64,000 bases of DNA from Notolepis coatsorum. Taxonomy: Eukaryota > Chordata > Actinopteri > Aulopiformes > Paralepididae. Made by a program: the position numbers and the translations under genes. Numbering within the stretch: position 1 is the first letter of the stretch; every line of letters starts with the position of its first letter. Shown here in pieces: positions 5,444 to 59,430 of the stretch. The stretch is from assembly GCA_963971535.1 (NCBI GenBank), contig OZ020585.1, forward strand, positions 161,701,487 to 161,765,486, in the 5' to 3' direction. The notes beneath the pieces were generated by a model. That model made no database searches. It was not told where the DNA came from and saw nothing but the letters and a program-made list of their open reading frames with translations.

Positions 5444-6871
5444 TTATTGTTCGTTTAGCAGCCTGATGGCCTGGGGATAGAAGCTTCTTCCGAGTCTTTC
5501 TGTGCTCGCCTTAAGACTCCGGTATCGCTTGCCTGACCGCAGCAGTTCAAAGAGGCAGTTGTTCGGGTGGCTCGAGTCCTTAATAATTCTCTTAGCCTTC
5601 CCCCTGCACCGCTTGTTGTAAATGTTCTGGAGGGTGGGAAGCCCCCCTCCAATTGTGCGTTCGGCTGAACGTGTCACTCTTTGTAGTCTGCTACGGTCTT
5701 GTGCAGTGCTATTCCCAAACCAGGAGGTGATGTTGCCAGTCAGGATGCTCTCTATTGTACATGAGTAGAAGTTCCTAAGGATCTTCTGACTGACTTGGAA
5801 CTTCCTTAGGCGCCTGAGGAAGTAGAGGCGTTGTCGTGCCTTCTTCACAACACTGTCAATGTGTGTGGTCCATGTCAAGTCCTCGGATATGTGGGCTCCG
5901 AGGTACTTGAAACTGTTCACTCTCTCAACCGGTGCCCCGTCGATGCTGAGGGGGCTGTAGTCCTTGACCCCCGACCTCCTGAAGTCCACAATCATCTCTT
6001 TTGTTTTGCTGACGTTCAGGGAGAGGCAGTTCTCCTGACACCACTGTGACAGATTCTCTACCTCTTCCAGGTAGGCCCTCTCGTCGTTGGCAGAGATCAG
6101 GCCCACCACTACTTTGTCATCAGCAAATTTGATGATTGTGTTGTTGTTCCGCTGTGCCACGCAGTCATGTGTGTACAGGGAGTAGAGGAGGGGGCTCAGA
6201 ACACAGCCCTGGGGGGCCCCTATGTTGAGCGTGATGGATGAGGAGGTGCAGTTGCCTGCTCTTACCACCTGGGGTCTGCCCGTCAGGAAGTCCAGGACCC
6301 ACTGGCAGAGGTCATAGTTCAAGCCCAGGTCCCTGAGCTTGGCTATGAGTTTGGAGGGGACTATGGTATTGAATGCTGAGCTGTAGTCGATGAACAGCAT
6401 TCTCACATAGTTCCCCTGCCTCTTGTCCAGGTGTGATGCTGCTGTGTGCAGCACATGGGCTATGGCGTCCTCCGTGGACCTGTTGGGGCGATATGCAAAT
6501 TGCAGGGGGTCCAGGTTGATGGGGAGGGAGGAACAGATGTAGCCCTTCACTAGCTTCTCAAAGCACTTCATGGCTATGGAGGTGAGGGCTACAGGGCGGT
6601 AGTCGTTGAGGCAAGCGGGCGTAGATTTTTTGGGTACAGGGATGATGGTGGACTTCTTCAGACAGGTGGGGATGACAACCTGTTCCAAGGACAGGTTGAA
6701 GATGTCAGTGAATACCGGGGCCAGTTGGTCGGCACAGACTTTTAGGACGCGGCCGGGGATGCCGTCCGGTCCTGCTGCCTTCCTGATATTCACTTTTTTA
6801 AAGATCCGTCTCACCTCATGCTCTGTTACCCTGAACACTGAGTCTCCATCAGCAGACCCCCCCCCCCCCAA
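5444..6871 (-). CDS. LINE reverse transcriptase (L2/CR1/Jockey-like)
   Basis: A 475-codon frame carries the reverse transcriptase domain of a non-LTR element. Motifs in order: a [11 protein letters not shown] finger motif, [10 protein letters not shown], the first catalytic Asp in [23 protein letters not shown], and the catalytic FADD box. After the thumb comes a C-terminal tail ending in YPQAIRLLN, which is common in fish L2-type elements. The frame has no AUG. It begins next to a 13-base C run (6857-6869). Beyond the run, another frame continues the protein upstream to about 7008 (...NDLNSFYARFEAV...), so a one-base homopolymer change broke the reading frame or is a sequencing error. No endonuclease domain remains, because the 5' end is lost. 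RT core residues are intact. Confidence 0.85.
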
Positions 6872-7008
6872 TTGCCGTGGTTGTTAGGCTGGTGTTGTTA
6901 TTCACAGCCTCAAACCTCGCATAGAAGGAATTGAGATCATTTGCTAAGGAGATGTCACTGTTCAGTTTGAGGGAGGTGCCTTTGTAATCTGTCATTGTTC
7001 TGAGGCCC

Positions 7009-13502: not shown

Positions 13503-13981
13503 CCTCTTGCGCCGCCCCTGTGCTTCAAATAGATCCGCTATCAACTCTATCTTTAATTTTTCAAAATGTACAGTTGCTATTGCATGCACTCATCTGTGTT
13601 TCACTACACACATGAGTGCATGCTTACCAACTGTCCGTCTGCAACACTACTATCACCGACATCTAAGAAGGGAGATCCCCCCTTGAACGGCCCTTCTAAG
13701 GTTTCTCTCCTCCACATTGCCTGTGGAGCTTTTTTCCCTATTGTTAGGTTTTAGTGAGTTTTCCTTACCTTCGCGTGGGGTATGTCTGGGAGTGCTTGCA
13801 TTCTTTCATTTATTTGCATTCATCTAAAAAATGTTTGGACCCTATGGTGTTCTTGTTCTGTTCTTGACTTATTGTTATGTTGTCTTCTTGACTTGTTTAA
13901 AGAAGACCTGTACGGCCCATGGGGACATTAACGTGTGTTGTCGGGCCCTATAAATAAATTTGATTTGATTTGATTTGATTT
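13503..13981 (+). mobile_element. 5'-truncated LINE fragment with TTTGA tail
   Basis: Inserted in the endonuclease part of ORF2. GATTAC lies on both sides (13497-13502 and 13982-13987), and the host frame reads on cleanly when one copy is dropped. The insert ends in repeated TTTGA. Its 3' part (from CAACACTACTATCACCGACA) recurs at 42935-43217, and the end alone at 40233-40326. Family not assigned. Confidence 0.8.
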
Positions 13982-15631
13982 GATTACTATAGCAAAAGTT
14001 GAATTCTCGCATAGGAAGATGGCTATAATAGCATTGTATGCTCCTAACACATTTGATTCAGCGTTCTATAATACAATCACGAAGAATATGTTGGAACTTA
14101 ATGGATACGCTCTCATTGTGGGTGGCGATTTTAATGCGTGCTGGGATGCGGAGATGGATAGGTCCGGGCACTCTGAAACGAGCGACCAAAAACGGGCCTC
14201 TAAGGCCCTCAGGATGTGGGCCCAGGACACGGGGCTCACAGACCTTTGGCGCTTATCCAACCCCACCCTCAAAGATTACTCTCACCTGTCAGCCAGACAC
14301 AAAAGCTTCTCTCGAATTGACTATGCATTCGCGTCCCCTAATATGTTTGATAGTTTCGATGTCTCATTGGTTCCCTTGGCTCTCTCAGACCACAAGGGGA
14401 TTTTCCTTACGGCAACCTTTGGCAGGCTCTCCGCAAGAGCTCCCAGATGGCGTTTTAATTCGACCTTGCTAAAGATCGATGACTTCTGTTCTGAGTTCAG
14501 GAGTAAACTAGCTGAATTTTTGCAGATCAACGTTGGCACAGTAGAAGACCCTAGGGTCCTGTGGAACGCATTGAAAGGATTTATCAGGGGTCATGTCACA
14601 CTATTTGCCTCCAATTTGCGAAAATCCCGGTCAAAAAAGCTAGAAGGACTGGAAACATTATATGCGGACCTATACGCATCCTTGCAAACTAACTATAGTG
14701 AACGACTAAACACACAACGTAAGATAGTCAAAAAAGAAATAAACTCCATACTTAAACAACAGTCTGAGTTCTTGATACATAGGACAAGACAAAATTACTA
14801 CTTTCACGGCTCCAGACCTAGCCATCTATTGGCAATGAAAATACGCTCAAATGATCATTTCTCGGATATCCCCTCGATCAGGACGAGCCAGGGTGCAGTC
14901 ACTACTGATTCGAAAAAGATCAATGACACTTTTAAAGAGTTTTACTCACAGTTATATAGCTCAGAGGGTAATCTTGATGACTCTAAATTTGAATCGTTCA
15001 TTGGCGGGCTTGAGATACCCCACATTTCTGAGGAAGAGGCCAAGGAACTGGGGAGACTGATCACTCTCGTGGAATTGAGGGAGACGATTGTTGAAATGCA
15101 GAGGGGTAAGGCACCAGGCTGGGATGGTATTCCACCCGAAGTGTATTTAGCTTTCTGGGACCAACTGGGTCCATTGATGCTCGATATGATCAATTACGCT
15201 ATCGAACAAGGGGAGTTCTCAAGAGATGTCAATATGGCGTTGATTTCTTTACTTCTCAAGAAGGACAAAGATCCCAATGATTGTGGTAGCTATAGACCCT
15301 TGAGTCTTCTCGGGGCCGATTTAAAAGTGTTTGCCAAGGTGCTGGCCCGTCGCCTGCAGAGAGTTATGTCTGTATTGGTACACTGCGATCAAACTGTTTT
15401 TATCCCGGGGCGTCTGGCTGCAGATAATCTTAGGAGGCTGTTGCATGTAATCGATAACAGTAAAGACAATACAACTCCATCCACAGTTCTGTCTTTGGAT
15501 GCCATGAAGGCGTTTGACAGACTTGAGTGGTCATACCTGTGGAAGGTACTTGAGGTCATGGGTCTTGGGAAGAGTTTTATTCATATGATTAAAGTCCTGT
15601 ATGCCTCGCCGTCTGCGATGATACTGACAGG

Positions 15632-16617
15632 TAGGCCTGCCGCGATAAGCAATAAATCGATTAATTGCCGCGATAATTAAAATGAATGCAATGATTTTGA
15701 CGGGCGCGATTAATTGCTATTTGCGCGTTTGTTTTAATGAGGCGGACCCAGTGCCCCTTGTCAGTCACTGTCCGTGTTGGGAGGCGGGCCGCTGGCTTTC
15801 TATTCTACTAGCATTAACGTTACTCATACAAACAGAGTAAACACAGTTTTCAATCAATCAATCAATAACAACATTAACGAGACCCTCGTTGTGTCTATTC
15901 TGCTAACGCTAACGTTACCTCTCATTGTGTCTATTCTACAAGCGTTAACGTTAGCTGTAACGTTACCAGTCGCGTCTATTTGCTAACGTTAGCATTAGGT
16001 AATAACCGGTTTAAAATGGATGGTGATTACCTCACGTTGTGTCTATTCTACTAGCATTAACGTTACTCATACAAACAATCAATAGCGAGTTATATTGATC
16101 ACGCTATGTACGATAGCCATGCTAAAACGCTAGCACAACATTAGCACCTAACCTAACAACAAGCCTTAACAAGTCAGCGATCTTTTTGCGAGACTAAACT
16201 CTCCGCTCGGTGGCAAATTGTGTTGATGTCGGTTTTGTTTAATCAATAAATGAGGCAGAATACACAGTGACTGTATCCTTTGTTTATTGCACTTGTGCCT
16301 GCTGCAAACATAATGCTTATGAAATCCTAGAGACGCGTCTCTATTCTGACCAATCAGTGGTCTGCAGTGTTTCACGTGACTTTTCTGGTACCCAAAGTAC
16401 CTGATAATCGCAACAATACTTCCGGTCCGGTCGGTGGGCTTCAAAATAAAAGTCTAAAACACCGGAAAAGACGGAGCGGTGGGCTTCAAAATAAAAGTTT
16501 TGGGAAATAAATTTCTCCAAAAAAAAAATTCTCTAACCGGTCGCAATAATATCGCTTATCGCGATATTTTCGGGGGCAATTAATCGCCCAGCAAAATGTG
16601 TTATCGTGGCAGGCCTA
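15632..16617. mobile_element. Non-autonomous hAT element in ORF2
   Basis: 986 bp with terminal repeats TAGGCCTGCCGCGATAA / TTATCGTGGCAGGCCTA and a perfect 8-bp duplication CTGACAGG (15624-15631, 16618-16625). Inside are many CTAACGTTA motifs, a paired TTCAAAATAAAAG motif near 16440-16497, and no transposase frame. It cuts the reverse transcriptase between the first catalytic Asp and the YADD box. Confidence 0.93.
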
Positions 16618-19264
16618 CTGACAGGCAAAAACTGTTCCACACTCTTTCCAGTCTCCAGATCTTCTAGACAGGGTTGTCCTCTGAGCCCAGGACTGTTCGC
16701 GCTTTCCCTCGAACCTTTGGCCCAATTTATTAGGCAATCGGAGGACATCGTCCCCATAATGGTCAATAATACTCCACACAAAATTGCTCTCTATGCGGAT
16801 GACCTGCTGATTTTCATGGACGACCCCTCCCGGTCGGCCACAAAATTATTGAGGATAATCGACGACTTTGGTAAATTGTCAGGCTTTAAGATTAACTGGA
16901 ACAAATCAGCCTGCCTACCTCTTAATGAGCTGGCCAAGGCGGTACGACTACCAGCTGATATCCCCATAGTAGAACATTTTAAATACTTGGGCATAGAGAT
17001 ATTCCCCACGCTGAACCAAACTACTAAGTACAACTTCACGGGTACTTATGATAAAATACGCCAGGATCTAGACAGGTGGTCGTCCCTTCCTAACTCCTTA
17101 CAAGCCCGGGCTTCCATAATCAAAATGAACATCCTGCCTAGGATAAATTTTATTAGCTCAATGCTCCCCCTGCCCCCTCCAATAGACCACTGGCGCAAGG
17201 TACAATCGATGGTATCTAGGTTTATCTGGAATAACAAACGCCCGAGAATCAAAAGGGCTACTACTCAACGTAGAAAACAAGATGGGGGCCTCGCAATCCC
17301 TGATTTTAAACTTTATTTCTGGTCCTTTTCACTGAGACCTCTGATGTGCTGGCTAGACCCTGTAGAGGCTGTATCGTGGCACTCCTTAGAAGCGGCTGCG
17401 GTATCTCCGCTAAGATTGCAGGATGTAGTGTACTCCACTGTCTCTATTTCGAAATGCCGGCTGAGGTATGGACCGATCATAACTCATGTGATCCAAACGT
17501 GGCGTAATGTACAGAGGTCGTGTGGGGTTAAATGCCCATGGCACCTGGACTCTCCAATTTTTAATAACCAGCAATTACTTGTTGGGCACAAGCCGGTTAA
17601 TATTCCTCAATGGCAAAGGAGGGGAGTGCATACTCTGGAGGATATTTATGATAAGAACGGCCTCCGTGCGTTTCAGGACTTAAGAGAATTTTATGATCTT
17701 CCCGGCGAGTCCTTCTTTCTTTACCTTCAACTAAGGTCAGCACTGAGGGCGCATGGCGTACCGTGGGCTCAAGCTTTGCACCCACACCCTTTCCTCAGGC
17801 TCATAGTGGACAGGACGACATCCAGAGGGTTTGTCTCAGACTTTTATACGCTCTTAATTCAATCCACGTATAAAAATGTATCATTGGATACAATCTGGCG
17901 TGTGGATATCCCGGAGTTGGACCCCGAGTTTAACTGGGATGATGTTTGGGCAAATGTGGCATTATCTTCCCGCAACCCCAATCACCAGCAAATTAATCAT
18001 AATTATATTCACACCTAGGAGGCTATTTGCTATGGGACTGATAACCGACTCTCGGTGCACTTTGTGCTCTCAAAAGGCCACTGGCACTTATATGCATATG
18101 TATTGGGATTGCCCACCAGTGGCCCGTTTCTGGAGGTCAATAACGGACAAACTTTCAGATCTGTGTGGCTTAACTATCCCATTCACAGCTGTTACGTTAC
18201 TCCTGAACGATATAACGACACTACCCGCGTCCGTACAACTGAAAAGGGTTGTCCTAGCGGGCGTCACAGCAGCGAAGAAGCTTATAGCAATGAGATGGAA
18301 GGAGCCTGAGAAGCTTACAATGATTAACTGGTCCCTAACTCTATTGGATGTGATTTATCTTGAGATATCCACGGCTCGGGTGATTGGGGTGGGGCAGGCT
18401 GGCATTGACCTGTGGTTTGCAGCAGCTGAGAAGGTAAAGACCGCCGTGTGCGGCTGAGCGGGGTTGGGGCGCTTGATCGGGGGGGTCCGGCGGTCTCTGG
18501 GGAGGGGGAGGAGGAAATGTCTTGTCTGTCTTGGTTTTTGTCTTGTCCTTCTTAACTTTGACTGGGGGGATTTTAGGGGGGGTTGATATTTAGCTATTCT
18601 GCGCTATATGTCATTCACATGCCATCTCCCCAAGGGACTAATATTGGCAGACTGATTGACCTGTCAACCAACTTGGAGGAAGATTTTCTTTCTTCTTACA
18701 CTTTACCTTCTGCGAGTTTGGCAGTCTTGAACATGTGTAAGGGACCTAGGCTATCTACAGTAAATCTGCGGAAACACTCTCGTAAACAATCTTTTAAGCC
18801 ACTCCACTTTGTAAAGGTGGGGAAAGGCTGGCATGTTTGAAGACCTTTTTGTTATTGAAGTAGCCATCTATATTTGATAGGTTGGACGCTTTTTCTTTTT
18901 CTTTTTGTCTTTATAATTTATTATTCTGTATTATTATTGGTTGTTATTCTCCTGTGAAGTTATGTTTTTTGTTACTGTGGTTATTGTGTTGTCTTGTTTC
19001 ATGTAATTAATAATAAAAAAAATTGATAAAAAAAAAAAAAAAAAATTCAGTCTGTTCATTTCACTTCAATAATTTTTATTGCAGCTAATGGGATTTTCTC
19101 AAGCAGACGGATGTCAACACTGTAATCTGTGTTGCATGTACCTGACAAACTGAACTGTTTGTATTACAGTAGGGCTGCAACGAATAGTCGACATAATCGA
19201 CGACGTCGATCATAAAAACTCGTCGACGCCGAATTTTTGCAGTGATGCGTCGTATTTTTGCACT

Positions 19265-19426
19265 ACCTATCTTTGTGAAAGTGGCTTCTCAGCTCTGGTC
19301 CAGCTGAAGACAAAGCAGAGGAACAGATTGGACATTGAGCATGACCTCAGAGTTGCTTTGTCTACCATCACCCCAGACTTTGAGACTCTTGTCAGGAGCA
19401 AACAACATCCCCAGTTATCCCATTAG
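19265..19426 (+). pseudogene. hAT transposase C-terminal (dimerisation) remnant
   Basis: A short frame reads TYLCESGFSALVQLKTKQRN followed by DLRVALSTITPDF and ends QLSH before TAG 19424-19426. This is the conserved C-terminal dimerisation block of hAT transposases and the ZBED-like proteins derived from them. The rest of the transposase is missing and the fragment has no start codon. Confidence 0.85.
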
Positions 19427-19466
19427 TTCCCTGGGTTGTTAAGCTAAGAAGTCTGCTAAGAAGGAT

Positions 19467-19469
19467 ATA

Positions 19470-19542
<73 letters not shown>
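19467..19542. repeat. TTA microsatellite
   Basis: About 25 TTA units. It resumes at 27504-27542, so the triplicated unit sits inside this array. Confidence 0.9.
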
Positions 19543-19646
19543 GTGTGGGTGACCTGGCGAAGCCAGGTTGCCACCCACACTATACATATCCATACTCTTT
19601 TTATTAGTGTGGGTGACCTGGCGAAGCCAGGTTGCCACCCACACTA
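19541..19646. repeat. Tandem pair of 42-bp palindromes
   Basis: Two hairpin-forming palindromes at 19541-19582 and 19605-19646, 64 bp apart. Arms are TAGTGTGGGTG...CCTGGC and GCCAGG...CCACCCACACTA with a GAA loop. They open the triplicated unit. Confidence 0.9.
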
Positions 19647-20519
19647 TACATATCCATACTCTTTTTATTATTATTCTTTATTCCACCGATTTTGCAAACA
19701 CTTTGCAACACGTAAGCGTTCGCGCCCCATACACGTGAAAGGTATCAAAACGAGCGGCTTGCCTATGGCAACACCGGTCTCCGATCTCGTAAAGTTTCAC
19801 CGCACCGTCTGGCTACGAATCGACTTTAAACGGTAAAATATCGGTCCCATTGGGAATGCATTGCATTTTAGAGTGTAGCAGCTGAAATAATCTTTTTCCC
19901 CCTACCTTGGGTGAATTGCGAGTGTGATCTCAATTTTGGACGTAGAAATAAAACAAACACATCAAAACGATGACACGGCTGTCAACCCGCTCACAAAAGA
20001 AAAATAAATGGAATTGGACATTTCTATCTCAACTGACGACCATTTGTTTGAAGGTTCTCCTCCCCATTGACCGCCATGCAATCGCACTCTAGAAATCACA
20101 TTTTTCACACTATTTTTTAGCCTTCTGTTCCGATCGCCGAAGGAGTGCCACAATATCGCACGAATGTCACAATATCGCGCACAACCCTTCGCCTACTCGT
20201 TGTAGTGCTCATGTGCGCGTCACAACGCTTCATCTCTTATAGTTTTCTTTTAATCAATGTGACAATGCAGTCATGCATCTGCCTCCATAGAAATGCATTG
20301 GATAGAAAATATGCAAGTCATAGTGATTGCTTCACCTGTGTGGCTCATGGCTCACTCATGATTGGTTCAGCTGTGTGGCTCGTGGCTGAGCTGCCAATGA
20401 CATCATCCACTTAACCCATCATTGGCCATCACTGTGTTGCAGTACTGAATTGCTGACAGCGCCCTCTGTCTTGTGGGTTGTGTCATTGTACTCAGTAGGG
20501 ATATCCTCTTTCATTTTTC

Positions 20520-20965
20520 ATTGGTCCATGTTGACCACCTTTCATTGGTCGATGTTGACCACTCCCCCGATCCTTAGACCACGCCCCCTTAGGCCACACC
20601 CCCTCAGTGTATCTCTTGAACCGTTTGTCGTAGAGACTTGCGGATTGTGCCATTGGTCGATGTTGACCACCTTTCATTGGTCGATGTTGACCACTCCCCC
20701 TGTTGACCACCTTTCATTGGTCGATGTTGACCACTCCCCCGATCCTTAGACCACGCCCCCTTAGGCCACACCCCCTCAGTGTATCTCTTGAACCGTTTGT
20801 CGTAGAGACTTGGGGATTGTGCCATTGGTCGATGTTGACCACCTTTCATTGGTCGATGTTGACCACTCCCCCGATCCTTAGACCACGCCCCCTTAGGCCA
20901 CACCCCCTCAGTGTATCTCTTGAACCGTTTGTCGTAGAGACTTGCGGATTGTGCCATTGGTCGAT
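20520..20965. repeat. Promoter-like direct repeats in copy 1
   Basis: Several units of about 140-180 bp combine ATTGGTCGATGTTGACCA, ACCACGCCCCCTTAGG, CCACACCCCCTCAG and TGAACCGTTTGTCGTAGAGA. ATTGG is a CCAAT box in reverse and CCACRCCCC is a KLF/Sp-type GC box. The same block recurs at 23118-23355 and 26027-26470. Confidence 0.7.
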
Positions 20966-20969
20966 GTTG

Positions 20970-21485
20970 ATCGGAAAAATCCGAAAACTCGAAAAAATCC
21001 CAAAACTCGGAAAAATCTAAAATCCGAAAAAGTTCAAAAACTCGGAAAAATCCCAAAAACCGAAAACTCGGAAAAATCCGAAAACTCGGAAAAATCTAAA
21101 AAGTTCCAAAACTCCGAAAAATCCCAAAACTCGGAAAAATCCCAAAACTCGGAAACATCAAAAATCCGAAAAAGTTCAAAAACTCGGAAAAGTCCGAAAA
21201 TCCGAAAACTCGGAAAAATCCAAAAACTCGGAAAATTCCGAAAACTCGGAAACATCAAAAATCCGAAAAAGTTCAAAAACTCTGAAAAGTCCGAAAACCC
21301 AAAAACTCGGAAAAATCCAAAAACTCGGAAACATCAAAAATCCGAAAAAGTTCAAAAACTCTGAAAAGTCCGAAAACCCAAAAACTCGGAAAAATCCAAA
21401 AACTCGGAAACATCAAAAATCCGAAAAAGTTCAAAAACTCGGAAAAGTCCGAAAACCCGAACACCCGAAAAAATCCAAAAACTCT
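20970..21485. repeat. Purine-rich minisatellite
   Basis: Irregular units such as AAAACTCGGAAAAATCC and ATCCGAAAAAGTTCAAAAAC; present only in copy 1 of the triplicated unit. Confidence 0.9.
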
Positions 21486-21910
21486 GTAATAGTGTAATAG
21501 TGTGTAATAGTGTAATAGTGTAATAGTGTGTAATAGTGTAATAGTGTGTAATAGTGTAATAGTGTGTAATAGTGTAATAGTGTGTAATAGTGTAATAGTG
21601 TGTAATAGTGTAATAGTGTAATAGTGTGTAATAGTGTAATAGTGTAATAGTGTGTAATAGTGTGTAATAGTGTAATAGTGTGTAATAGTGTGTAATAGTG
21701 TGTAATAGTGTAATAGTGTGTACTAGTGTGTAATAGTGTGTAATAGTGTAATAGTGTAATAGTGTGTAATAGTGTAATAGTGTGTAATAGATCATTTAGT
21801 TTGATCTGTGTGTAATAGTGTGTAATAGTGTAATAGTGTGTACTAGTGTGTAATAGTGTGTAATAGTGTAATAGTGTAATAGTGTAATAGTGTGTAATAG
21901 ATCATTTAGT
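21486..21910. repeat. TAATAGTG / TAATAGTGTG array
   Basis: Mixed 8-bp and 10-bp units. A GATCATTTAGTTTGATCTG block occurs at 21789 and again at 21899. Confidence 0.95.
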
Positions 21911-22189
21911 TTGATCTGCCACTTCTTGGACACATGGTGCCATGAGAAAGGGTGAGTATTAAATAATACAACACGAAAGGGAGTTTGTGTTATAGTTAAT
22001 AAAATCACATCTGTAGTCATCTTCAAATGGTCTATGTTGACCACTCCCCCGATCCTTAGGCCGCGCCCCCTTTTTGTATCCTTTGAACCGTTTGTCATAG
22101 AGACTCGCGAGAGACCCTCTCCCCCGTTGGCCGGCGGTGCACAGGCGTCACCCACACTTTCACAATTTCCCCCGCGCGGAATTGTCTAG

Positions 22190-25169
22190 TATATACTTAT
22201 TATCTATATTCTCAGATTTTCCAAACAACACTCGTGCCATAGCGTTCGCGCCCCATACACGTGAAAGGTATCAAAACGACCGGCTTGCTCCAACTCGATG
22301 TGCTATTCGAACTCGTAAAGTTTCACCGCACCGTCTGGCTACGAATCGACTTTAAACGGTAAAATTTCGGAAATACAGTGCAATTTAGAGTTTCAAACAC
22401 TTTGCAACACGTAAGCGTTCGCGCACCATACACGTGAAAGGTATCAAAACGAGCGGCTTGCCTATGGCAACTGCGGTCTTCGAACCCGTAAAAGTTTCAC
22501 CGCACCGTCTGGCTACGAATCGACTTTAAACGGTAAAATTTCGGTCCCATTGGGAATGCATTGCATTTTAGAGTGTAGCAGCTGAAATAATCTTTTTCCC
22601 CCTACCTTGGGTGAATTGCGAGTGTGATCTCAATTTTGGACGTAGAAATAAAACAAACACATCAAAACGATGACACGGCTGTCATCCCGCTCACAAAAGA
22701 AAAATAAATGGAATTGGACATTTCTATCTCAACTGACGACCATTTGTTTGAAGGTTCTCCTCCCCATTGACCGCCATGCAATCGCCCTCTAGAAATCAAT
22801 TTTTTTTTAGCCTTCTGTTCCGATCGCCGAAGGAGTGCCACAATATCGCACGAATGCCACAATCTCGCGCACAACCCTTCGCCTACTCGTTGTAGTGCTC
22901 TTGTGCGAGTCTCAACGCTTCATCTCTTATAGTTTTCTTTTAATCAACGTGACAATGCAGTCATGTAAAGAAATTTCAGAATATGCAAGTCATTGTGCTC
23001 ATGGCTGATTGGTTCAGGCTTAACAGCTGTGAGGCTCAGGGCTCATGGCTGAGCTGACCTGCCAATGACATCATTCACTTAACCCATCATTGGCCATCAC
23101 TGTGTTGCACTACTGAATTGATGTTGACCACTCCCCCGATCCTTAGACCACGCCCCCTTAGGCCACACCCCCTCAGTGTAACTCTTGAACCGTTTGTCGT
23201 AGAGACTTGGGGATTGTGCCATTGGTCGATGTTGACCACCTTTCATTGGTCGATGTTGACCACTCCCCCGATCCTTAGACCACGCCCCCTTAGGCCACAC
23301 CCCCTCAGTGTATCTCTTGAACCGTTTGTCGTAGAGACTTGCGGATTGTGCCATTGTACTCGGTGTAATAGTGTAATAGTGTGTAATAGTGTAATAGTGT
23401 GTAATAGTGTAATAGTGTAATAGTGTGTAATAGTGTAATAGTGTGTAATAGTGTAATAGTGTAATAGTGTGTAATAGTGTGTAATAGTGTAATATTGTGT
23501 AATAGTGTAATAGTGTAATAGTGTGTAATAGTGTAATAGTGTAATAGTGTGTAATAGTGTAATAGTGTGTAATAGTGTGTAATAGTGTAATAGTGTAATA
23601 GTGTGTAATGGTGTAATAGTGTCTAATAGTGTAATAGTGTGTAATAGTGTAATAGTGTAATAGTGTGTAATAGTGTAATAGTGTGTAATAGTGTAATAGT
23701 GTAATAGTGTGTAATAGTGTAATAGTGTGTAATAGTGTAATAGTGTGTAATAGTGTAATAGTGTGTAATAGTGTAATAGTGTGTAATAGTGTAATAGTGT
23801 AATAGTGTGTAATAGTGTGTAATAGTGTAATAGTGTGTAATAGTGTAATAGTGTGTAATAGTGTAATAGTGTAATAGTGTGTAATAGTGTAATAGTGTGT
23901 AATAGTGTGTAATAGTGTGTAATAGTGTAATAGTGTGTAATAGTGTAATAGTGTAATAGTGTAATAGTGTGTAATAGTGTAATAGTGTAATAGTGTGTAA
24001 TAGTGTAATAGTGTGTAATAGTGTAATAGTGTAATAGTGTGTAATAGTGTAATAGTGTGTAATAGTGTAATAGTGTGTAATAGTGTAATAGTGTGTAATA
24101 GTGTGTAATAGTGTAATAGTGTAATAGTGTGTAATAGTGTAATAGTGTGTAATAGTGTAATAGTGTGTAATAGTGTAATAGTGTGTAATAGTGTAATAGT
24201 GTAATAGTGTGTAATAGTGTAATAGTGTAATAGTGTGTAATAGTGTAATAGTGTGTAATAGTGTAATAGTGTAATAGTGCAATAGTGTGTAATAGTGTAA
24301 TAGTGTGTAATAGTATAATAGTGTTATAGTGTGTAATAGTGTAATAGTGTAATAGTGTGTAATAGTGTAATAGTGTAATAGTGTGTAATAGTGTAATAGT
24401 GTAATAGTGTGTAATAGTGTGTAATAGTGTAATAGTGTGTAATAGTGTAATAGTGTAATAGTGTGTAATAGTGTAATAGTGTAATAGTGTGTAATAGTGT
24501 AATAGTGTGTAATAGTGTGTAATAGTGTGTAATAGTGTAATAGTGTAATAGTGTGTAATAGTGTAATAGTGTGTAATAGTGTAATAGTGTAATAGTGTGT
24601 AATAGTGTAATAGTGTGTAATAGTGTGTAATAGTGTGTAATAGTGTAATAGTGTGTAATAGTGTAATAGTGTGTAATAGTGTGTAATAGTGTAATATTGT
24701 GTAATAGTGTGTAATAGTGTAATAGTGTAATAGTGTGTAATAGTGTAATAGTGTAATAGTGTGTAATAGTGTAATAGTGTGTAATAGTGTGTAATAGTGT
24801 AATAGTGTGTAATAGTGTAATAGTGTGTAATAGTGTGTAATAGTGTGTAATAGTGTAATAGTGTGTAATAGTGTAATAGTGTGTAATAGTGTAATAGTGT
24901 GTAATAGTGTGTAATAGTGTGTAATAGTGTAATATTGTGTAATAGTGTAATAGTGTAATAGTGTTGCGGGTTGTGTCATTGCACTCAGTAGGGATATCCT
25001 CTTTGATTGGTCTATGTTGACCACTCCCCCGATCCTTAGGCCGCGCCCCCTTTTTGTATCCTTTGAACCGTTTGTCATAGAGACTCGCAAGAGACCCTCT
25101 CCCCCGTTGGCCGGCGGTGCACAGGCGTCACCCACACTTTCACAATTTCCCCCGCGCGGAATTGTCTAG
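22190..25169. mobile_element. Triplicated unit, copy 2 (unclassified)
   Basis: The same order of parts as copy 1 but diverged. The 5' domain is partly duplicated (GTTCGCGCCCCATACACGTG at 22244, a variant at 22416). The promoter-like block is shorter, and the TAATAGTG array is far longer (23363-24964). It ends with the same GTCACCCACACTTTCACAA...AATTGTCTAG. No palindrome pair at its start. Confidence 0.6.
23363..24964. repeat. 1.6-kb TAATAGTG / TAATAGTGTG array
   Basis: Only two main unit types, 8 bp (TAATAGTG) and 10 bp (TAATAGTGTG), in irregular order with rare variants (TAATATTG, TAATGGTG). The long frames in it are artefacts of missing stop codons. Confidence 0.97.
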
Positions 25170-27502
25170 TTATTTATTTATTCTTTATTCCACCGATTTT
25201 GCAAACACTTTGCAACACGTAAGCGTTCGCGCCCCATACACGTGAAAGGTATCAAAACGAGCGGCTTGCCTATGGCAACACCGGTCTCCGAACTCGTAAA
25301 GTTTCACCGCACCGTCTGGCTACGAATCGACTTTAAACGGTAAAATATCGGTCCCATTGGGAATGCATTGCATTTTAGAGTGTAGCAGCTGAAATAATCT
25401 TTTTCCCCCTACCTTGGGTGAATTGCGAGTGTGATCTCAATTTTGGACGTAGAAATAAAACAAACACATCAAAACGATGACACGGCTGTCAACCCGCTCA
25501 CAAAAGAAAAATAAATGGAATTGGACATTTCTATCTCAACTGACGACCATTTGTTTGAAGGTTCTCCTCCCCATTGACCGCCATGCAATCGCACTCTAGA
25601 AATCACATTTTTCACACTATTTTTTAGCCTTCTGTTCCGATCGCCGAAGGAGTGCCACAATATCGCACGAATGTCACAATATCGCGCACAACCCTTCGCC
25701 TACTCGTTGTAGTGCTCATGTGCGCGTCACAACGCTTCATCTCTTATAGTTTTCTTTTAATCAATGTGACAATGCAGTCATGCATCTGCCTCCATAGAAA
25801 TGCATTGGATAGAAAATATGCAAGTCATAGTGATTGCTTCACCTGTGTGGCTCATGGCTCACTCATGATTGGTTCAGCTGTGTGGCTCGTGGCTGAGCTG
25901 CCAATGACATCATCCACTTAACCCATCATTGGCCATCACTGTGTTGCACTACTGAATTGCTGACAGCGCCCTCTGTCTTGTGGGTTGTGTCATTGTACTC
26001 AGTAGGGATATCCTCTTTCATTTTTCATTGGTCCATGTTGACCACCTTTCATTGGTCGATGTTGACCACTCCCCCGATCCTTAGACCACGCCCCCTTAGG
26101 CCACACCCCCTCAGTGTATCTCTTGAACCGTTTGTCGTAGAGACTTGCGGATTGTGCCATTGGTCGATGTTGACCACCTTTCATTGGTCGATGTTGACCA
26201 CTCCCCCTGTTGACCACCTTTCATTGGTCGATGTTGACCACTCCCCCGATCCTTAGACCACGCCCCCTTAGGCCACACCCCCTCAGTGTATCTCTTGAAC
26301 CGTTTGTCGTAGAGACTTGGGGATTGTGCCATTGGTCGATGTTGACCACCTTTCATTGGTCGATGTTGACCACTCCCCCGATCCTTAGACCACGCCCCCT
26401 TAGGCCACACCCCCTCAGTGTATCTCTTGAACCGTTTGTCGTAGAGACTTGCGGATTGTGCCATTGTACTCGGTGTAATAGTGTAATAGTGTGTAATAGT
26501 GTAATAGTGTAATAGTGTGTAATAGTGTAATAGTGTGTAATAGTGTAATAGTGTGTAATAGTGTGTAATAGTGTAATAGTGTGTAATAGTGTAATATTGT
26601 GTAATAGTGTAATAGTGTAATAGTGTGTAATAGTGTAATAGTGTGTAATAGTGTAATAGTGTAATAGTGTAATAGTGTGTAATAGTGTAATAGTGTAATA
26701 GTGTGTAATAGTGTAATAGTGTAATAGTGTGTAATAGTGTAATAGTGTAATAGTGTGTAATAGTGTAATAGTGTAATAGTGTGTAATAGTGTAATAGTGT
26801 GTAATAGTGTAATAGTGTGTAATAGTGTAATAGTGTGTAATAGTGTAATAGTGTGTAATAGTGTAATAGTGTAATAGTGTGTAATAGTGTGTAATAGTGT
26901 GTAATAGTGTAATAGTGTGTAATAGTGTAATAGTGTAATAGTGTGTAATAGTGTAATAGTGTGTAATAGTGTAATAGTGTAATAGTGTAATAGTGTGTAA
27001 TAGTGTAATAGTGTGTAATAGTGTAATAGTGTGTAATAGTGTGTAATAGTGTAATAGTGTAATAGTGTGTAATAGTGTAATATTGTGTAATAGTGTAATA
27101 GTGTGTAATAGTGTAATAGTGTGTAATAGTGTAATAGTGTGTAATAGTGTGTAATAGTGTAATAGTGTGTAATAGTGTAATAGTGTAATAGTGTGTAATA
27201 GTGTAATAGTGTGTAATAGTGTAATAGTGTGTAATAGTGTAATAGTGTAATAGTGTGTAATAGTGTAATAGTGTAATTGTGTAATAGTGTAATAGTGTTG
27301 CGGGTTGTGTCATTGCACTCAGTAGGGATATCCTCTTTGATTGGTCTATGTTGACCACTCCCCCGATCCTTAGGCCACGCCCCCTTTTTGTATCCTTTGA
27401 ACCGTTTGTCATAGAGACTCGCGAGAGACCCTCTCCCCCGTTGGCCGGCGGTGCACAGGCGTCACCCACACTTTCACAATTTCCCCCGCGCGGAATTGTC
27501 TA

Positions 27503-27503
<1 letters not shown>
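25170..27503. mobile_element. Triplicated unit, copy 3 (unclassified)
   Basis: The first 1.3 kb is almost identical to copy 1 at a constant offset of 5,507 bp (only a few base differences seen, e.g. CCGATCTCG against CCGAACTCG). It then has its own TAATAGTG array (26473-27298) and the common 3' end, followed directly by the resumed TTA microsatellite. Confidence 0.6.
26473..27298. repeat. TAATAGTG / TAATAGTGTG array of copy 3
   Basis: Same two unit types as at 23363-24964, about 0.83 kb. Confidence 0.97.
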
Positions 27504-27541
<38 letters not shown>

Positions 27542-28003
27542 TTATTTCATTGTGTTTTTAGCCCTAGTTACATTTTTGTTGCAACCCCAGTTATCCCATT
27601 AGTTCCCCCAAACTTACTGTCGGTCTGTTATGTTAAGCTAAGAAGTCTGCTAAGAGCCCGGAAAAGGAGCCGCGCCCACAGGAAGCAGAGATGGAGGGTG
27701 TGACAGAAATAATCGTTAGATTAGTCGACTACCAAAATAATCGTTAGTTGCAGCCCTATATTAGTCATATTCCAACTTAACTGAATGCACACGTGTGCGT
27801 GCGTGTGGATTATTGTACTATTACAGGTAATGAAATGAACAATGCAACTTCCTTATACAAAAAAATAATAATATTTTTTTTGCATAATTAAATATCGATA
27901 CTTGGCGTCCTTGTATCGATACAGTATCGCCACGCAAAGTATCGCGATACTATACTGTTGATATTTGCCCCCACCACTAGTAGCTACTGTAGTCCTGCAG
28001 TGC

Positions 28004-44099: not shown

Positions 44100-45433
44100 C
44101 TGAGGACAGGAGTCACAGGACACATGAGAGGAATGTTTTAGTGTGTGGCTCAGGCAGGCAGACACTGTATTAATCCATTTAGGGCATCACAGCAGCATTG
44201 AAAGTCAAATGATACATATCTATAGAAATATCTAGTATAAAGCATTTGTCTCCGTGTGCACCTACCGCATAGACGTGTTCTCTGTATGCAGCGACTCCCA
44301 GTCCGTAACGCCTGCTGCTCATGGGGGCGATCAGAGTCCACTGGTCGGTGTCTGGGCTGTAGCACTCAGCTGTGAGCAGAAACGCTGCCTCGTTCCAGCC
44401 ACCACAGATGTAAACCTGTAATAAGAAAGAATATTCTAATTTAGTTTATATATTCCATTTGATTTCATTCTACTTTAATTGTCGTTTAATATGTTGATGC
44501 ACCAAAGGACCCAGACACATCTTTTGTATGTGCAAGCTTACTTATATAAATAAATAAAGACATTTATGATATTCTGATCTAACGTTCCTTGTGTTCATCT
44601 AGCACCCTGTGTCCCTCAGTTCCACCCACCTTGCCCTGGAGGGGTGCTGCCCCGGCCCAGATCCTGTGCTCCAGCATGGGTGAGATCACTGTCCACTGGT
44701 TGGTTTCAGGCTGGTAGCGCTCGGCGGTGTTCAGTACCACGTGTCCGTCCCACCCTCCCATGGCGTAGATACAGCCGTCCAACACCACCACGCTGAGGCT
44801 ACTGCGGCGTGAGTGCATGGGAGCCGCCTGCAGCCAGCTGCGAGTGACGGGGTTGAACCTGCTCACACTGCTGAGACGCTCTACGCCGTCCCGGCCGCCG
44901 ACGCAGTAGACCAGACCGTGGAGATAAGCGGTGGCGTGGTGGAAGACCCGGGAACTCTCCCCCTCAACGCTCACGTCCATCCATCCACCGGCTCGGATAT
45001 CGTAAGCCTCCATGGTCAGGATGCCGCCACCGCGTCTTCCGATGGCCAATAGGACCTCCTGGGGCCGGCGTGGACGCATCAGGGGGTTTGGGAGCCTGTC
45101 GGAGCCAGGTGGGTTCAGGACGCTGAGGATGAGGGCCCTGCAGTCGTGGCTGTCCCTCACCACAGGGTTGTTCTGGACGTTGTTCCTGAAGTAGTCAGGC
45201 CTCATCAAGCCCATGCGAACCTGGGAAGAGACAAGCAGACAGCGGGTACAACTTAGACATCGGTTGTAGACGGTTTCTGTTGCTAGGGAACAGTTTGGAC
45301 CCAAATGTTTGAGAACCACTGTACTAGGGAACCTAGTGTTGTTTTAATGTAATGCACAGTAATACATTTTTTTTTTTTTATAAATGTTTTTCTTTTCTTT
45401 TCTTTTCATACATAAAACAGAACATAACAGTAC

Positions 45434-45531
<98 letters not shown>

Positions 45532-47344
45532 TGACAACAATGACAACAGGGACGACAACAATAATAACAGTAACATGAATCATAATGACCTTGACAAGAG
45601 ACAGACAAACAAGAAAAAGTAAAATAATAAAAATTAAATTAAAAATAAATGTGGCTCAGGTTCTAGCAACCATGTTTGTGTATCCGTAATACAATTAGTT
45701 ACCTTGGGCAGCAGCAAAGGGATGTGTGTTTTACGCTCCTCACGGGAGTGGTCGATCCAACGGCGGACGGCCTCGAACACTGTCTCCTCGCTCTTCACGT
45801 TCAGGTCATCCCTCTCGATGATGTCCACCAGTTGCTGCGGGGACAGCTCCACAAACTCCTGTGAGACGTGCAACATCTCCTCAAAGTGGCACACGATGCA
45901 GAGATGGGCCTTGCACCTCAGGTCAGGGCAGCAGTAGATGTCCGTGAACCTCCAGATGCCAACACAGTTTTCCAGAGACAGCTGGCCCTCTAGGAAGTCA
46001 GAGCACGCTCCTACTATGCCAGTGACGCGAAGCTGGTCTGCAGCCACCAGAAGCTCTTCCACGTTCTCTGCTGTCACCAGCACAAAGCGTGTGTAGGAGT
46101 ACTCTATGATGAGCTGCATCATACCCGGGGACACCCCAGGGATAGCGTAGACTGCTTTCTCTGAGTCGCTCCAGCGAGTGAAGAGGGCTCTGTGGGACGC
46201 AGAGTATAGAGATATCTGATGAGTAAACAGTAAGCAACATTCTGTCCTGTGTAGTAATTAAGGCTGAGTCAACTAATCGGTCGAAAGGAGCCGTAGTCGA
46301 CTGCCAACCTCTTAGAAGCGTGGCTAACGCTAATGGCATGCATACCAGAGGCCAACTGCCTAAGAAAACAGGCACAGAGGCACTGAAAGAGGATTTCACC
46401 AATCTAATGAACACACTAGACTAGACAAATATCAAGATGTATCCATCAGTGGACCAATTGCATGCTTTTGCAGAGGACAACAAGCCTTCAGTCGACTCCT
46501 TCAGACATTAAGCACCCCCCACAGCCCAAATGGAATGATAAAATAAAAAATATATATATATTATACTTTTATTTTTTATTTATTTTTTGTCGACTAATAG
46601 TCGACTAATGGCACATTTTGGCCAATCATAGTCGACTATCCAAATCCTTAGTTGGGGACAGCCCTAGTAGTAATATATTTTCACTGTAGAAGTATAGGGT
46701 CTTAGCACAGTAGAAGTATAGTATCTGTTTACAGTAGAAGTAGAGTATAGTATCTGTTTACAGTAGAAGTACAGTATATTATCTGTTTACAGTAGAAGTG
46801 CAGTATAGTATCTTTTTACAGTAGAAGTACAGTATAGTATATGTTTACAGTAGAAGTACAGTATAGTATCGGTTTACAGTAGAAGTACAGTATATGTGTA
46901 CAGTAGAAGTACACTATAGTAAATTTTTACATTCGAAGTACAGTATAGTATCTGTTTACAGTAGAAGTACAGTATAGTATCTGTTTACAGTAGACGTACA
47001 GTATAGTATCTGTGTACAGTAGAAGTACAGTATATTATCTTTTTACAGTAGACATACAGTATAGTATTTTTTACAGTAGACATACAGTATAGTATCTGTT
47101 TACAGTAGAAGTATAGTATCTGTTTACAGTAAAAGTACAGTATGGTATCTGTTTACTAACCAAGCTAACCTGAACCAAGCTAACCTGAACCAAGCTAAAC
47201 TTACCTGAAATAGTCACTGCAGTCACACAGGAGGGCCTTGTGGGCATTCAACTCAGTGCTGTTGACTTTAATAACCACATCACAGAGCCTTCCCTCCAGA
47301 CGCAGCTCATTAAGGATTGTACAGGACATTGTTTCCTTTACCAT
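43695..47344 (-). CDS. klhl10: Kelch-like protein 10 (five exons)
   Basis: A spliced minus-strand gene of about 590 codons: exons 47344-47205, 46189-45703, 45220-44630, 44415-44266 and 44099-43695, all joints GT-AG and phase-consistent. Order: BTB/POZ (ELRLEGRLCDVVIKV), BACK (CHFEEMLHVSQEFVEL), then kelch repeats with typical GG doublets (YAMGGWDG, VYICGGWN, VGGFDG). The peptides match KLHL10 along their length, and human KLHL10 is 608 residues. KLHL10 is a testis-enriched adaptor that links CUL3 ubiquitin ligase to substrates in spermatids. Oddities: the last kelch blade has VVGSS where VVGGFNG is expected. The C-terminus after SQYAAPR runs into a Gly-rich microsatellite and stops at 43695-43697. 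Internal MITE and microsatellites enlarge the introns. Fish have several klhl10 copies and I cannot say which this is. Confidence 0.88.
44266..44415 (-). CDS. klhl10: klhl10 exon 4 (kelch 4)
   Basis: 50 codons, phase 0. VYICGGWNEAAF to REHVYA. Donor GCG|GTAGGT. Confidence 0.9.
44630..45220 (-). CDS. klhl10: klhl10 exon 3 (BACK end, kelch 1-3)
   Basis: 197 codons in phase 0. Starts VRMGLMRPDYF, has LMRPRRP before the propeller, and kelch units with VYCVGGRDG and YAMGGWDG. The first unit reads IGRRGGG where KLHL10 has IGGWSGG. Confidence 0.92.
45434..45528. repeat. AAT microsatellite in klhl10 intron 2
   Basis: About 31 ATA units followed by degenerate ACA/GACAACA words. Confidence 0.95.
45703..46189 (-). 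CDS. klhl10: klhl10 exon 2 (BTB end and BACK)
   Basis: Acceptor CACAG|A. Begins ALFTRWSDSEKAVY, covers the rest of BTB and most of BACK (FTDIYCCPDLR, AVRRWIDHS) and ends LLLPK before AAG|GTAACT. Confidence 0.9.
46259..46666. mobile_element. hAT MITE in klhl10 intron 1
   Basis: 408 bp with ends TAAGGCTGAGTCAACTAATC and GGACAGCCCTA and a perfect 8-bp duplication GTAGTAAT (46251-46258, 46667-46674). Many TAGTCGACTA words. A relative in the other orientation starts at 50349. Confidence 0.88.
46680..47155. repeat. Minisatellite of about 30 bp in klhl10 intron 1
   Basis: Units TTACAGTAGAAGTACAGTAT + AGTATCTGT, about sixteen copies with deletions. Confidence 0.95.
47205..47344 (-). CDS. klhl10: klhl10 exon 1 (BTB start)
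   Basis: ATG 47344 followed five codons later by a second in-frame ATG (47329), then the BTB start LNELRLEGRLCDVVIKV and HKALLCDCSDYF. Donor CAG|GTAAG; leaves two bases of an Arg codon. Confidence 0.82.
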
Positions 47345-54225: not shown

Positions 54226-55295
54226 TGTCATGCCATGCCAGGTGCCGGGTGTCACACCAGCCAACAGACACACGGATGGCAGCTTCTTTTAATGGCTTTT
54301 TAATGACCAGGCCGAGGCTCCACTTCCACTGTCATGTGCGGAACAAGAGAGAGGATGACAACAGAGCAGCGGTCCGAGGCCTGGCGCCCGCGTTTCATCT
54401 CAAACGGAGCAAAGCGGCATTTCTGCCTGACAGACGAGTCTTATTTCCTCCACCGAGCTGAAAATTAATCTTATGCTAATGTGAACTGCGAGTGCTCTGT
54501 ACGCCGGTTAATTACCGTAATGATTAACTCTCTTTCCAAAAACGCAAGATATTTTAAAGGCGGTCGGATTTGGCGCTGGGAGTTTTTTTTTTTTACAGCC
54601 GTCTTCCATTGGCAGCACATTGCCGTGGCAACAATACGCTTACTGTGTACAGTAATAATAATCGGCGTTGGATTCGTGGAGAGGACTTTTTCATTTAAAT
54701 TCTCCGGAGACGCACAGGAGTCGGGGGGGGGAACGGAGATGGAACCATATAGGAACCATATTATCTCTCTTCCTATTGGCTATAATTCCTATAATCTTTC
54801 CTACCAGAAGTGAACACTTCTAGTACTTTCTGTCTGCCTGTGTAAGCTCCCTGCTATAAAAGCTTGTCGATCAGCATTAGGAACCTGCAGAAATGATGTT
54901 GTATTGTAACGTTGCTTATCCATTATCCGTGTGAATTAGAATTTGTTTATATTCATGGCTGGCCGTTACTTATCGGCCTGCCATATAACACTCTAGTGCT
55001 GCAGTGGGCGTCGAGCAGCCCTCTCCCACCGAGTCCTCTCACAGTTCCCCCTGTAGCTGCACCCGCCAGAAAGTGCTCCGTCACCACGCTGGGGCACTTT
55101 AATTTCACCCTGCTATTTAACGCTGCTTTCTCTCCCATTATTCCCAGCGGCGTTGTGCCGCACCGCTGTGACTTAAGCCTGTTTAGCTTAAAACCTCTGT
55201 ATTTTGTTAGCAAGGTGACTTTGCTGCTGTTTCAGTGAATAATCAGGCTGCTTGGTTCCTCCAGGCCTGGTCACACACACACACCTCCTTCCCTC
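54226..55295. other. No gene recognised
   Basis: About 1.1 kb of mixed-composition DNA with short frames and no motif. T run at 54583-54592, G run near 54725. Confidence 0.5.
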
Positions 55296-58200: not shown

Positions 58201-58960
58201 CCTCTCCTCCTCCCTCAGCCTCCTCCCTCTCCTCCTCCCTCAGCCTCCTCCCTCAGCCTCCTCCCTCAGCCTCCTCCCTCAGCCTCCTCCCTCTCCTCCT
58301 CCCTCTCCTCCTCCCTCAGCCTCCTCCCTCTCCTCCTCCCTCAGCCTCCTCCCTCAGCCTCCTCCCTCAGCCTCCTCCCTCTCCTCCTCCCTCAGCCTCC
58401 TCCCTCAGCCTCCTCCCTCAGCCTCCTCCCTCTCCTCCTCCCTCTCCTCCTCCCTCAGCCTCCTCCCTCAGCCTCCTCCCTCTCCTCCTCCCTCTCCTCC
58501 TCCCTCAGCCTCCTCCCTCTCCTCCTCCCTCAGCCTCCTCCCTCAGCCTCCTCCCTCAGCCTCCTCCCTCAGCCTCCTCCCTCAGCCTCCTCCCTCTCCT
58601 CCTCCCTCAGCCTCCTCCCTCAGCCTCCTCCCTCTCCTCCTCCCTCTCCTCCTCCCTCTCTTCCTCCCTCAGCCTCCTCCCTCTCCTCCTCCCTCAGCCT
58701 CCTGCCTCTCCTCCTCCCTCAGCCTCCTCCCTCAGCCTCCTCCCTCAGCCTCCTCCCTCTCCTCCTCCCTCTCCTCCTCCCTCAGCCTCCTCCCTCAGCC
58801 TCCTCCCTCTCCTCCTCCCTCTCCTCCTCCCTCTCCTCCTCCCTCTCCTCCTCCCTCAGCCTCCTCCCTCTCCTCCTCCCTCTCCTCCTCCCTCAGCCTC
58901 CTGCCTCTCCTCCTCCCTCAGCCTCCTCCCTCAGCCTCCTCCCCTGCCTCTCCTCCAGCT
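55296..58960. repeat. 3.66-kb polypyrimidine minisatellite, 13- and 12-bp units
   Basis: Two unit types alternate irregularly: CCTCCTCCCTCAG (13 bp) and CCTCCTCCCTCT (12 bp), about 290 in all. The plus-strand frames of 1,286 and 1,329 codons are artefacts of a strand without stop codons. The 13-bp unit ends in a perfect polypyrimidine-CAG, the shape of a 3' splice site. Confidence 0.98.
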
Positions 58961-59430
58961 CCCTGCCTCTGCTGTGTACAGTACACGTCTATGGCTCCTT
59001 CTGTATATATTATAAGGTTATGGTCCCTGCTGCATATAGTACAACTCTATGGTCCCGGCTGTATACAATACAAGTCTATGGTCCCTGCTGTATAATTATC
59101 TCGTCCCTGCTATATATAATACAACTATGGTCCCTGCTGCTGGCCACCTCCTTTAACCTCTGTAGTCTCTCTCCCAGCATGCACTGTGGGGCTGGGGCCC
59201 TGGTCTGTGTGCGTCTGTCAGTGTGCCGTGCTCTGCAGTGAGAGAGCAGAGCTGTGAAGCCTCATTGCCACTTAATGAACAAACATATTTCCAGTGGATT
59301 CTTGTCCTCAGTAACGGCGGGCAAGCCATCTGCTCTGGTTAGCATCCCTAATGAACACGTAGTCGTTTCCACCCAGCATCACCCCTGTCCAAGTATGACA
59401 GCTAGCTAACCATTACTACTAACCAGACAG
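58961..59430. other. Short CTATGGTCCC repeat, then nothing recognised
   Basis: 58985-59135 has five loose copies of TCTATGGTCCCTGCTGTATA. Confidence 0.6.

Follow-up and report, generated by a model that had tools for sequence, protein, structure and literature searches.

A palindrome-ended repeat block in Notolepis coatsorum is very probably a HINE inserted at TT, most likely mobilised by a Helentron, with one element probably nested inside another

The window analysed here is a 64,000-nucleotide stretch of Notolepis coatsorum DNA that lies within contig C6 of a 3.42-Gb genome, and it contains at 19541-27503 the block of repeats that is the subject of this report. Elsewhere in the window, remnants of LINE-type reverse transcriptases (RVT_1) are found at 5444-6883 on the reverse strand and at 13974-18018 on the forward strand, the second with an endonuclease, and likely exons of a BTB-BACK-Kelch protein gene occupy 44579-46257 on the reverse strand. 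A 4-kb array at 55211-59241, open in all three forward frames for about 1300 codons and composed of PPPSASSLS-like repeats, is a tandem repeat rather than a gene.

The block and its surroundings are described throughout on the forward strand. They are enclosed by a 12-bp exact inverted pair, TAGGGCTGCAAC at 19170-19181 and GTTGCAGCCCTA, as read directly, at 27747-27758, which we take as the left and right terminal inverted repeats of a hAT-like host element. An earlier note on this DNA, made from the sequence alone, had placed the block inside a hAT element; the inverted pair agrees with an enclosing element of this sort, but its assignment to hAT is unproven because a 51-aa coding remnant of the host matches no Pfam family and no clear 8-bp target duplication was seen around it. 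Two flanks within the host, at 19406-19461 and 27582-27655, are near-identical over ~56 bp in direct orientation with two indels, perhaps reflecting an older duplication in the host element. The note had also set the block within a TTA microsatellite, and TTA repeats are present at about 19468-19542 and 27504-27546: the left target flank (about 19468-19541) has TT at the insertion point and the right target flank (27504-27546) begins with TT.

An exact-motif scan of the window located the 12-mer AGTGTGGGTGAC at 19542 and 19606 and its exact inverse, GTCACCCACACT, at 22147, 25127 and 27461. The block consequently opens with the 12-mer (19542-19553) and closes with its inverse (27461-27472), as had been noted before, and the further claim that one tail ends all three copies holds to the letter, a 31-bp tail with a hairpin and CTAG being identical at 22159-22189, 25139-25169 and 27473-27503. 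Each right end (22147-22189, 25127-25169 and 27461-27503) comprises this tail together with a 3' subterminal inverted repeat (subTIR), which sits 31 bp from the element end, and the sequences that follow the three tails are all different. At the left, a palindrome previously given as 42 bp occurs in two exact copies, as stated, each of which measures 40 bp (19542-19581 and 19606-19645) and belongs to a 64-bp repeat unit (2.1 copies at 100%); its first 12 bp, preceded by TT, constitute the 5' subTIR. Folding of the first palindrome, which is identical to the second, gave a z score of -6.0 with 0 of 200 shuffles as good. The 3' hairpin alone, ACAATT..AATTGT with CC/GG, folds no better than chance (z -0.8; 36/200 and 41/200 shuffles equal it), is constant among sampled copies and directly abuts CTAG. 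No exact 5' palindrome is present in copies 2 and 3 of the window.

Between these ends the order is left module, 132/172-bp repeats, A-rich array, GTGTAATA/GTGTGTAATA array and right module. After the second palindrome (19606-19645) comes a left module (19646-20522) that is repeated genome-wide and whose scanned ORFs match no protein family, and the repeat scan then delineated the internal 132/172-bp repeats that had been called 'promoter-like' modules (20523-20970), an A-rich CGGAAAAATC-type array found in the first unit only (20971-21484) and the first of three central arrays built of 8- and 10-bp GTGTAATA/GTGTGTAATA units (21485-21916), with the first right end beyond it. A second unit begins at the joint CTAG|TATATACTTATTATC with a diverged left module lacking the 5' palindrome (22190-23356) and continues through the second GTGTAATA array (23363-24964) to the second right end. 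The third stretch, 25170-27503, is made up of a T-rich tract, a palindrome-less left module, internal repeats, the third GTGTAATA array (26473-27298) and a right module that closes with the third right end. Six ORFs of the block, all between 19962 and 21364, were scanned without finding a Pfam family, and we thus saw no coding capacity there.

Three tandem copies had been proposed for this arrangement, and three tails are indeed present, but the copies are unequal: the body at 19664-20959 is 99.7% identical to that at 25173-26466 over 1296 columns, the middle body reaches about 86% identity, and palindromes are missing, such that a nested parse fits better. The three 'copies' are best read as an inner element, a two-unit composite at 19606-25169, lying inside an outer element whose left piece (19542-19605, a 40-bp 5' palindrome with its subTIR and a 24-bp T-rich spacer) continues at 25170-27503. 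When 19542-19605 is joined to 25170 onward, the alignment of the joined flanks departs from an uninterrupted left end only by 7 additional T-rich bases, and the alternative joint at 22190 fits worse. If palindromes are taken to open and tails to close a bracket, the locus would read outer( inner( unit ) composite unit ) outer unit ). The event was probably recent given that bodies 1 and 3 are 99.7% identical. Against the nested reading, none of the tracts seen is an exact, uninterrupted equivalent of the T-tract remainder of the outer element.

The block is one of many. Searching the genome with the 43-bp right end at up to 3 mismatches returned 2328 matches, 1085 forward and 1243 reverse, and the same pattern read backwards as a control returned 0. 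The left module gave 1060 first-look candidates, and when 40 of them were scored, 21 tied at the top score with 100%. What the earlier note would have held against its own reading, namely copies with random ends or a unit confined to this one locus, is accordingly not what the genome holds, since right ends are abundant and the copies examined have constant ends. For isolated copies we used 20 right ends picked by eye among the first 100 places listed, all on contig C1. CTAG is followed by TT in 19 and by TG in one; all 20 flanks differ from one another over bases 151-200, and in three of them (L031, L032, L047) the first 69 flank bases consist of TTA repeats only. Twelve of these loci were extended ~4.4 kb leftward, which recovered the 5' palindrome in eight, each at a TT|AGTG border, the palindromes of L051 and L060 being diverged. 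No palindrome was found in the remaining four extended loci: L050 is array throughout the fetched stretch, L052 has left-module sequence at about 82% without the palindrome, the match of L053 is limited to 125 bp of the right module, and that of L059 to the 43-bp end and pieces of the 132-bp repeat. At L059, which is the same place as L045, the exact 43-bp right end closes a different body with a long minus-strand frame and a CCHC-like end, which may be a captured piece or belong to a second family of passengers.

Pooling these isolated copies with outer borders elsewhere, we found TT|AGTG at 13 of 13 outer 5' borders (eight isolated loci, L005, L021, L024, L025 and the window) and CTAG|TT at 22 of 23 outer 3' borders (20 isolated loci, L011, L025 and the window), the exception being one CTAG|TG. 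The left count sets aside L024 at 1678 and L026 at 11, both TT-preceded, as stacked joints, and the right count sets aside the composite joints CTAG|TA (L013, L016, L017, L023 and the window) and the aberrant L006 tail CTAT|GT as internal. The lack of a TC start is thereby confirmed, and the constant A/T junction after CTAG that had been put forward as a sign of a Helitron is replaced by TT as the target. One insert, L057, lies inside a TTCTAACTC-type array in which the T-runs before CTAACTC are exactly TT in 61 of 61 cases (41 left, 20 right), and it carries TT on both sides; therefore, a single TT at the empty site became two on insertion. The TTA repeats that surround the copy in the window and L025 lead to the same reading. 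A further insertion, at L056 1-24, lies in a TTA tail after AGGTGCTATATAAATAAAG, which we take to resemble the 3' tail of a SINE or LINE, and tails of this type may be favoured landing pads. As expected of a eukaryotic repeat, the hairpin tail had no match in viral_contigs or genome_contigs and the left module had none among phage records; a literature search with three end motifs yielded no transposon paper by title among the matches listed.

Arrays of these elements occur on several contigs. Loci L001-L028 were fetched as the best matches to the left module, and their homogeneity is partly a product of that selection; tails and palindromes within them were located by Hamming distance. In the 20 ten-kb loci among them (L009-L028) there are 46 tails, with one orientation per locus and no inverted tail. 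Three types of joint were found. Where a tail is directly followed by a palindrome, the joint reads CTAG-TT-AGTGTGG, head to tail, in 22 of 22 cases (L001-L028). At the second type, counted over the window and L001-L063, CTAG is followed by a T-rich tract and a palindrome-less left module (27 joints, 12 distinct tracts). The third, CTAG|TATATACTTATTATC, is shared by the window with L013, L016, L017 and L023, and the unit that carries it looks like an amplified composite in that, over the 250 bp around the joint, comparison with the window shows only 2 to 4 differences and no gaps for L013, L016 and L017 (L023 has 71). Stacks of two to five palindromes are frequent, mostly with a 64-bp step, and several identical joints recur among arrays. 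Separately, an aberrant tail at L006 1393 ends in CTAT and is followed by right-module sequence, and at L019 5062 a palindrome without its left half follows an internal array. Together, the copies examined are dispersed, have constant ends and a TT target, and form arrays with defined joints and a single orientation.

A candidate for the autonomous partner emerged from a search with the PF14214 (Helitron_like_N) profile, which has 65 matches in the genome, all above the cut-off, and 0 in 14 control genomes. By table count, 42 of the 65 have a match uninterrupted by stops inside a frame of 2700 codons or more, and several share clusters with arrays of the block's family. On C1, within the stretch spanned by the 100 right ends listed, a co-oriented right end lies beyond each of three full-length matches, at 6581, 6614 and 7032 bp, and two weak partial loci near 40.27 and 77.70 Mb have no right end nearby. 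We examined one copy, at 73.38 Mb of C1, which has DUF6570 in an open 1000-aa stretch and a domain that matches 8add_A at 3e-37, its sole PDB match at E 0.01. According to excerpts of PMC9741609, 8add_A is DrT1-VTD2, the deubiquitinase domain of a zebrafish Helentron. In the 2771-codon frame of this copy, the Rep domain (PF14214) follows the deubiquitinase-type domain and an AP-type endonuclease (PF03372, 7e-16) forms the C-terminus, after which the frame stops. A Pif1-like stretch before the endonuclease may represent the helicase. About 2.6 kb after the frame lie a right module and exact tail that equal the window's third right end in 187 of 189 ungapped columns. The link between frame and right end is incomplete because ~2 kb of the interval and the left end fall outside the sequence read; it is nonetheless good, and we consider this Helentron the likely partner of the block, with a border possible within the ~2-kb gap.

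We are highly confident in the overall explanation of the block as a HINE, the passenger of a Helentron, with TT as its target and an inner element nested in an outer one. Weighing against it are the chance-level fold of the 3' hairpin, the single CTAG|TG border, the four extended loci where no palindrome was found, the diverged palindromes of L051 and L060, and the gap in the partner link. Judging by domains and ends, its mobilising element is most probably a Helentron, of which copies with long frames are still present in this genome. The earlier suggestion of a non-autonomous, rolling-circle-like, satellite-forming family with variable arrays between constant ends is supported. In the mechanism we propose, an enzyme with Rep, an AP-type endonuclease and a deubiquitinase domain would recognise the palindromic subTIR at the left, stop at the right hairpin-CTAG and insert the copy at two Ts of one strand, leaving TT on each side. 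With a target no longer than TT, resident copies would offer landing pads in their flanking TTs and inner T-tract, usable in one orientation only. Insertion beside a resident copy would produce the exact CTAG-TT-AGTG joint, and insertion into the inner T-tract would pile up palindromes on the left side and leave bodies without one on the right, such that one rule, TT on one strand, could yield the exact joint, the fixed orientation, the stacks and the palindrome-less bodies. The two right ends of the inner element at the window would reflect an earlier transposition that ran past the first terminator, and the outer element would itself have inserted in the TTA repeat of the hAT-like element. 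Rolling-circle transposition through circular intermediates, with a 3' hairpin terminator that can be bypassed, is described for Helraiser in excerpts of PMC4778049. More tentatively, we propose that the element serves as its own landing pad and that nested, co-oriented insertion, with its bracket grammar, builds satellite DNA without recombination, composites travelling as units; this general claim is a reasonable one that could well be wrong.

We infer mobilisation by the Helentron enzyme, read-through and, for the arrays, an origin by nesting in preference to multimer replication. The strongest competitor, which we regard as rather unlikely, would have arrays made at a single stroke when rolling-circle replication overruns the terminator, the multimers integrating as a block and the stacks and palindrome-less bodies arising as by-products of slippage or of partial rounds. 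The 22 exact joints fit this account, as do head-to-tail joints of tandem Helitrons (PMC5876387), plant arrays with many 5' ends (PMC12628747) and the terminator bypass of Helraiser (PMC4778049), all as reported in passages of those papers. However, insertion at the TT next to a copy predicts the exact joint just as well. Among stacks of the common type, 17 of 18 spacers are of equal length, as slippage would also give. Multimers offer no reason for the 27 palindrome-less bodies after CTAG and a T-tract, and they leave unexplained why 16 stacked-palindrome steps stand against a similar number of palindrome-less bodies, 19, in L009-L028, where four composite joints were also counted. These similar counts fit nesting and are suggestive only, many loci running off the fetched stretch and having been picked by similarity. 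Equally unexplained by multimers is a mixed stack in L024, in which a first palindrome with an L049-type spacer is cut at TT and followed by a common palindrome, an arrangement that would be simple to obtain by insertion and hard to get by slippage. Comparing T-tract remainders with uninterrupted tracts, a strict rule accounts for 17 of 27 joints and for 5 of the 12 distinct remainders; other offsets account for 0 to 3 distinct remainders, one still reaching 16 of 27 joints, and the comparison is thus only suggestive of self-insertion. As multimer replication does explain the exact joint and the orientation, it is a possible contributor.

Far less probable is that an ordinary repeat, its ends mere unit borders, was multiplied by segmental tandem duplication or unequal crossing-over: arrays on several contigs and the recurrence of identical joints speak for this, but both ends recur on isolated copies at TT sites that are unrelated, which rejects it as the sole cause, and three different sequences follow the window's three tails. 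As a secondary expander of arrays, such a process may have acted. Least credible is a canonical non-autonomous Helitron (Helitron1), which shares with the block a 3' CTAG preceded by a hairpin but is rejected under the definitions in excerpts of PMC4067079 on its 5' end, target and hairpin position, the block having no 5' TC, TT in place of an A/T target, subterminal repeats in inverted orientation, its hairpin directly against CTAG where the Helitron1 CTRR has one about 11 bp upstream, and a likely partner with an AP-type endonuclease. Helitron2, which has asymmetric terminal inverted repeats, a hairpin at each end and a Rep/helicase without endonuclease, was also rejected: the ends fit, yet the likely partner carries the PF03372 endonuclease.

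What is at stake is how rolling-circle transposons become satellite DNA. Because Helentrons with long open frames occur in this genome together with passengers whose right end matches, isolated insertions at readable TT sites and array joints in which order is recorded, counting ends can separate multimer replication from self-targeted insertion. As a HINE, the block would belong to a kind already known. Excerpts of the literature on HINEs and Helitron arrays contained no description of bracket-like self-nesting, for which we make no claim of its being unpublished.

Among known systems, the block is closest to HINE/DINE-1 elements as set out in parts of Thomas, Vadnagara and Pritham 2014 (PMC4067079), which have subTIRs of 12-15 bp, the 5' one 2-4 nt from the end. 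Shared features are palindromic subTIRs, a 3' stem-loop, central repeats, a Helentron partner (for the block, a likely one) and a T-rich or TT target with Ts at both borders; the block itself has a 12-bp subterminal pair, a short 3' palindrome, TT borders and no Pfam family in its scanned ORFs, and its candidate partner has the Helentron hallmark of Rep fused to a C-terminal AP endonuclease. Unlike the elements in those parts, the block's 5' arm belongs to a 40-bp hairpin and its end is CTAG, and its 3' subTIR lies 31 bp from the end as against 38-60 bp in mite HINEs, a figure that is no general criterion. Satellite-like centres are known from HINEs of flies, mites and oyster (excerpts of PMC4067079 and PMC7492417). 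By its description in the latter, Cg_HINE of the Pacific oyster is likewise dispersed and resembles the block in a left module with a subTIR, complementary inverted repeat and microsatellite, a satellite-like centre, and a right module with a subTIR and palindrome; the arms of the block's 5' hairpin are 20 nt apart instead of 1-12, and stacked palindromes, found in the block's family, go unmentioned in those excerpts. By domains, the candidate partner resembles the zebrafish Helentrons DrT1/DrT2 in its tegument-like deubiquitinase domain, alongside Rep and an AP-type endonuclease (PMC9741609, in part). For the arrays, sections of PMC12628747 offer two points of comparison: plant tandem Helitron arrays (Xiong et al.), which likewise grow from rolling-circle elements and of which many have multiple 5' ends and a single 3' end, whereas here 3' ends are kept and many 5' ends are missing, and dimers of transposable elements that McGurk and Barbash attribute to insertion-site preference.
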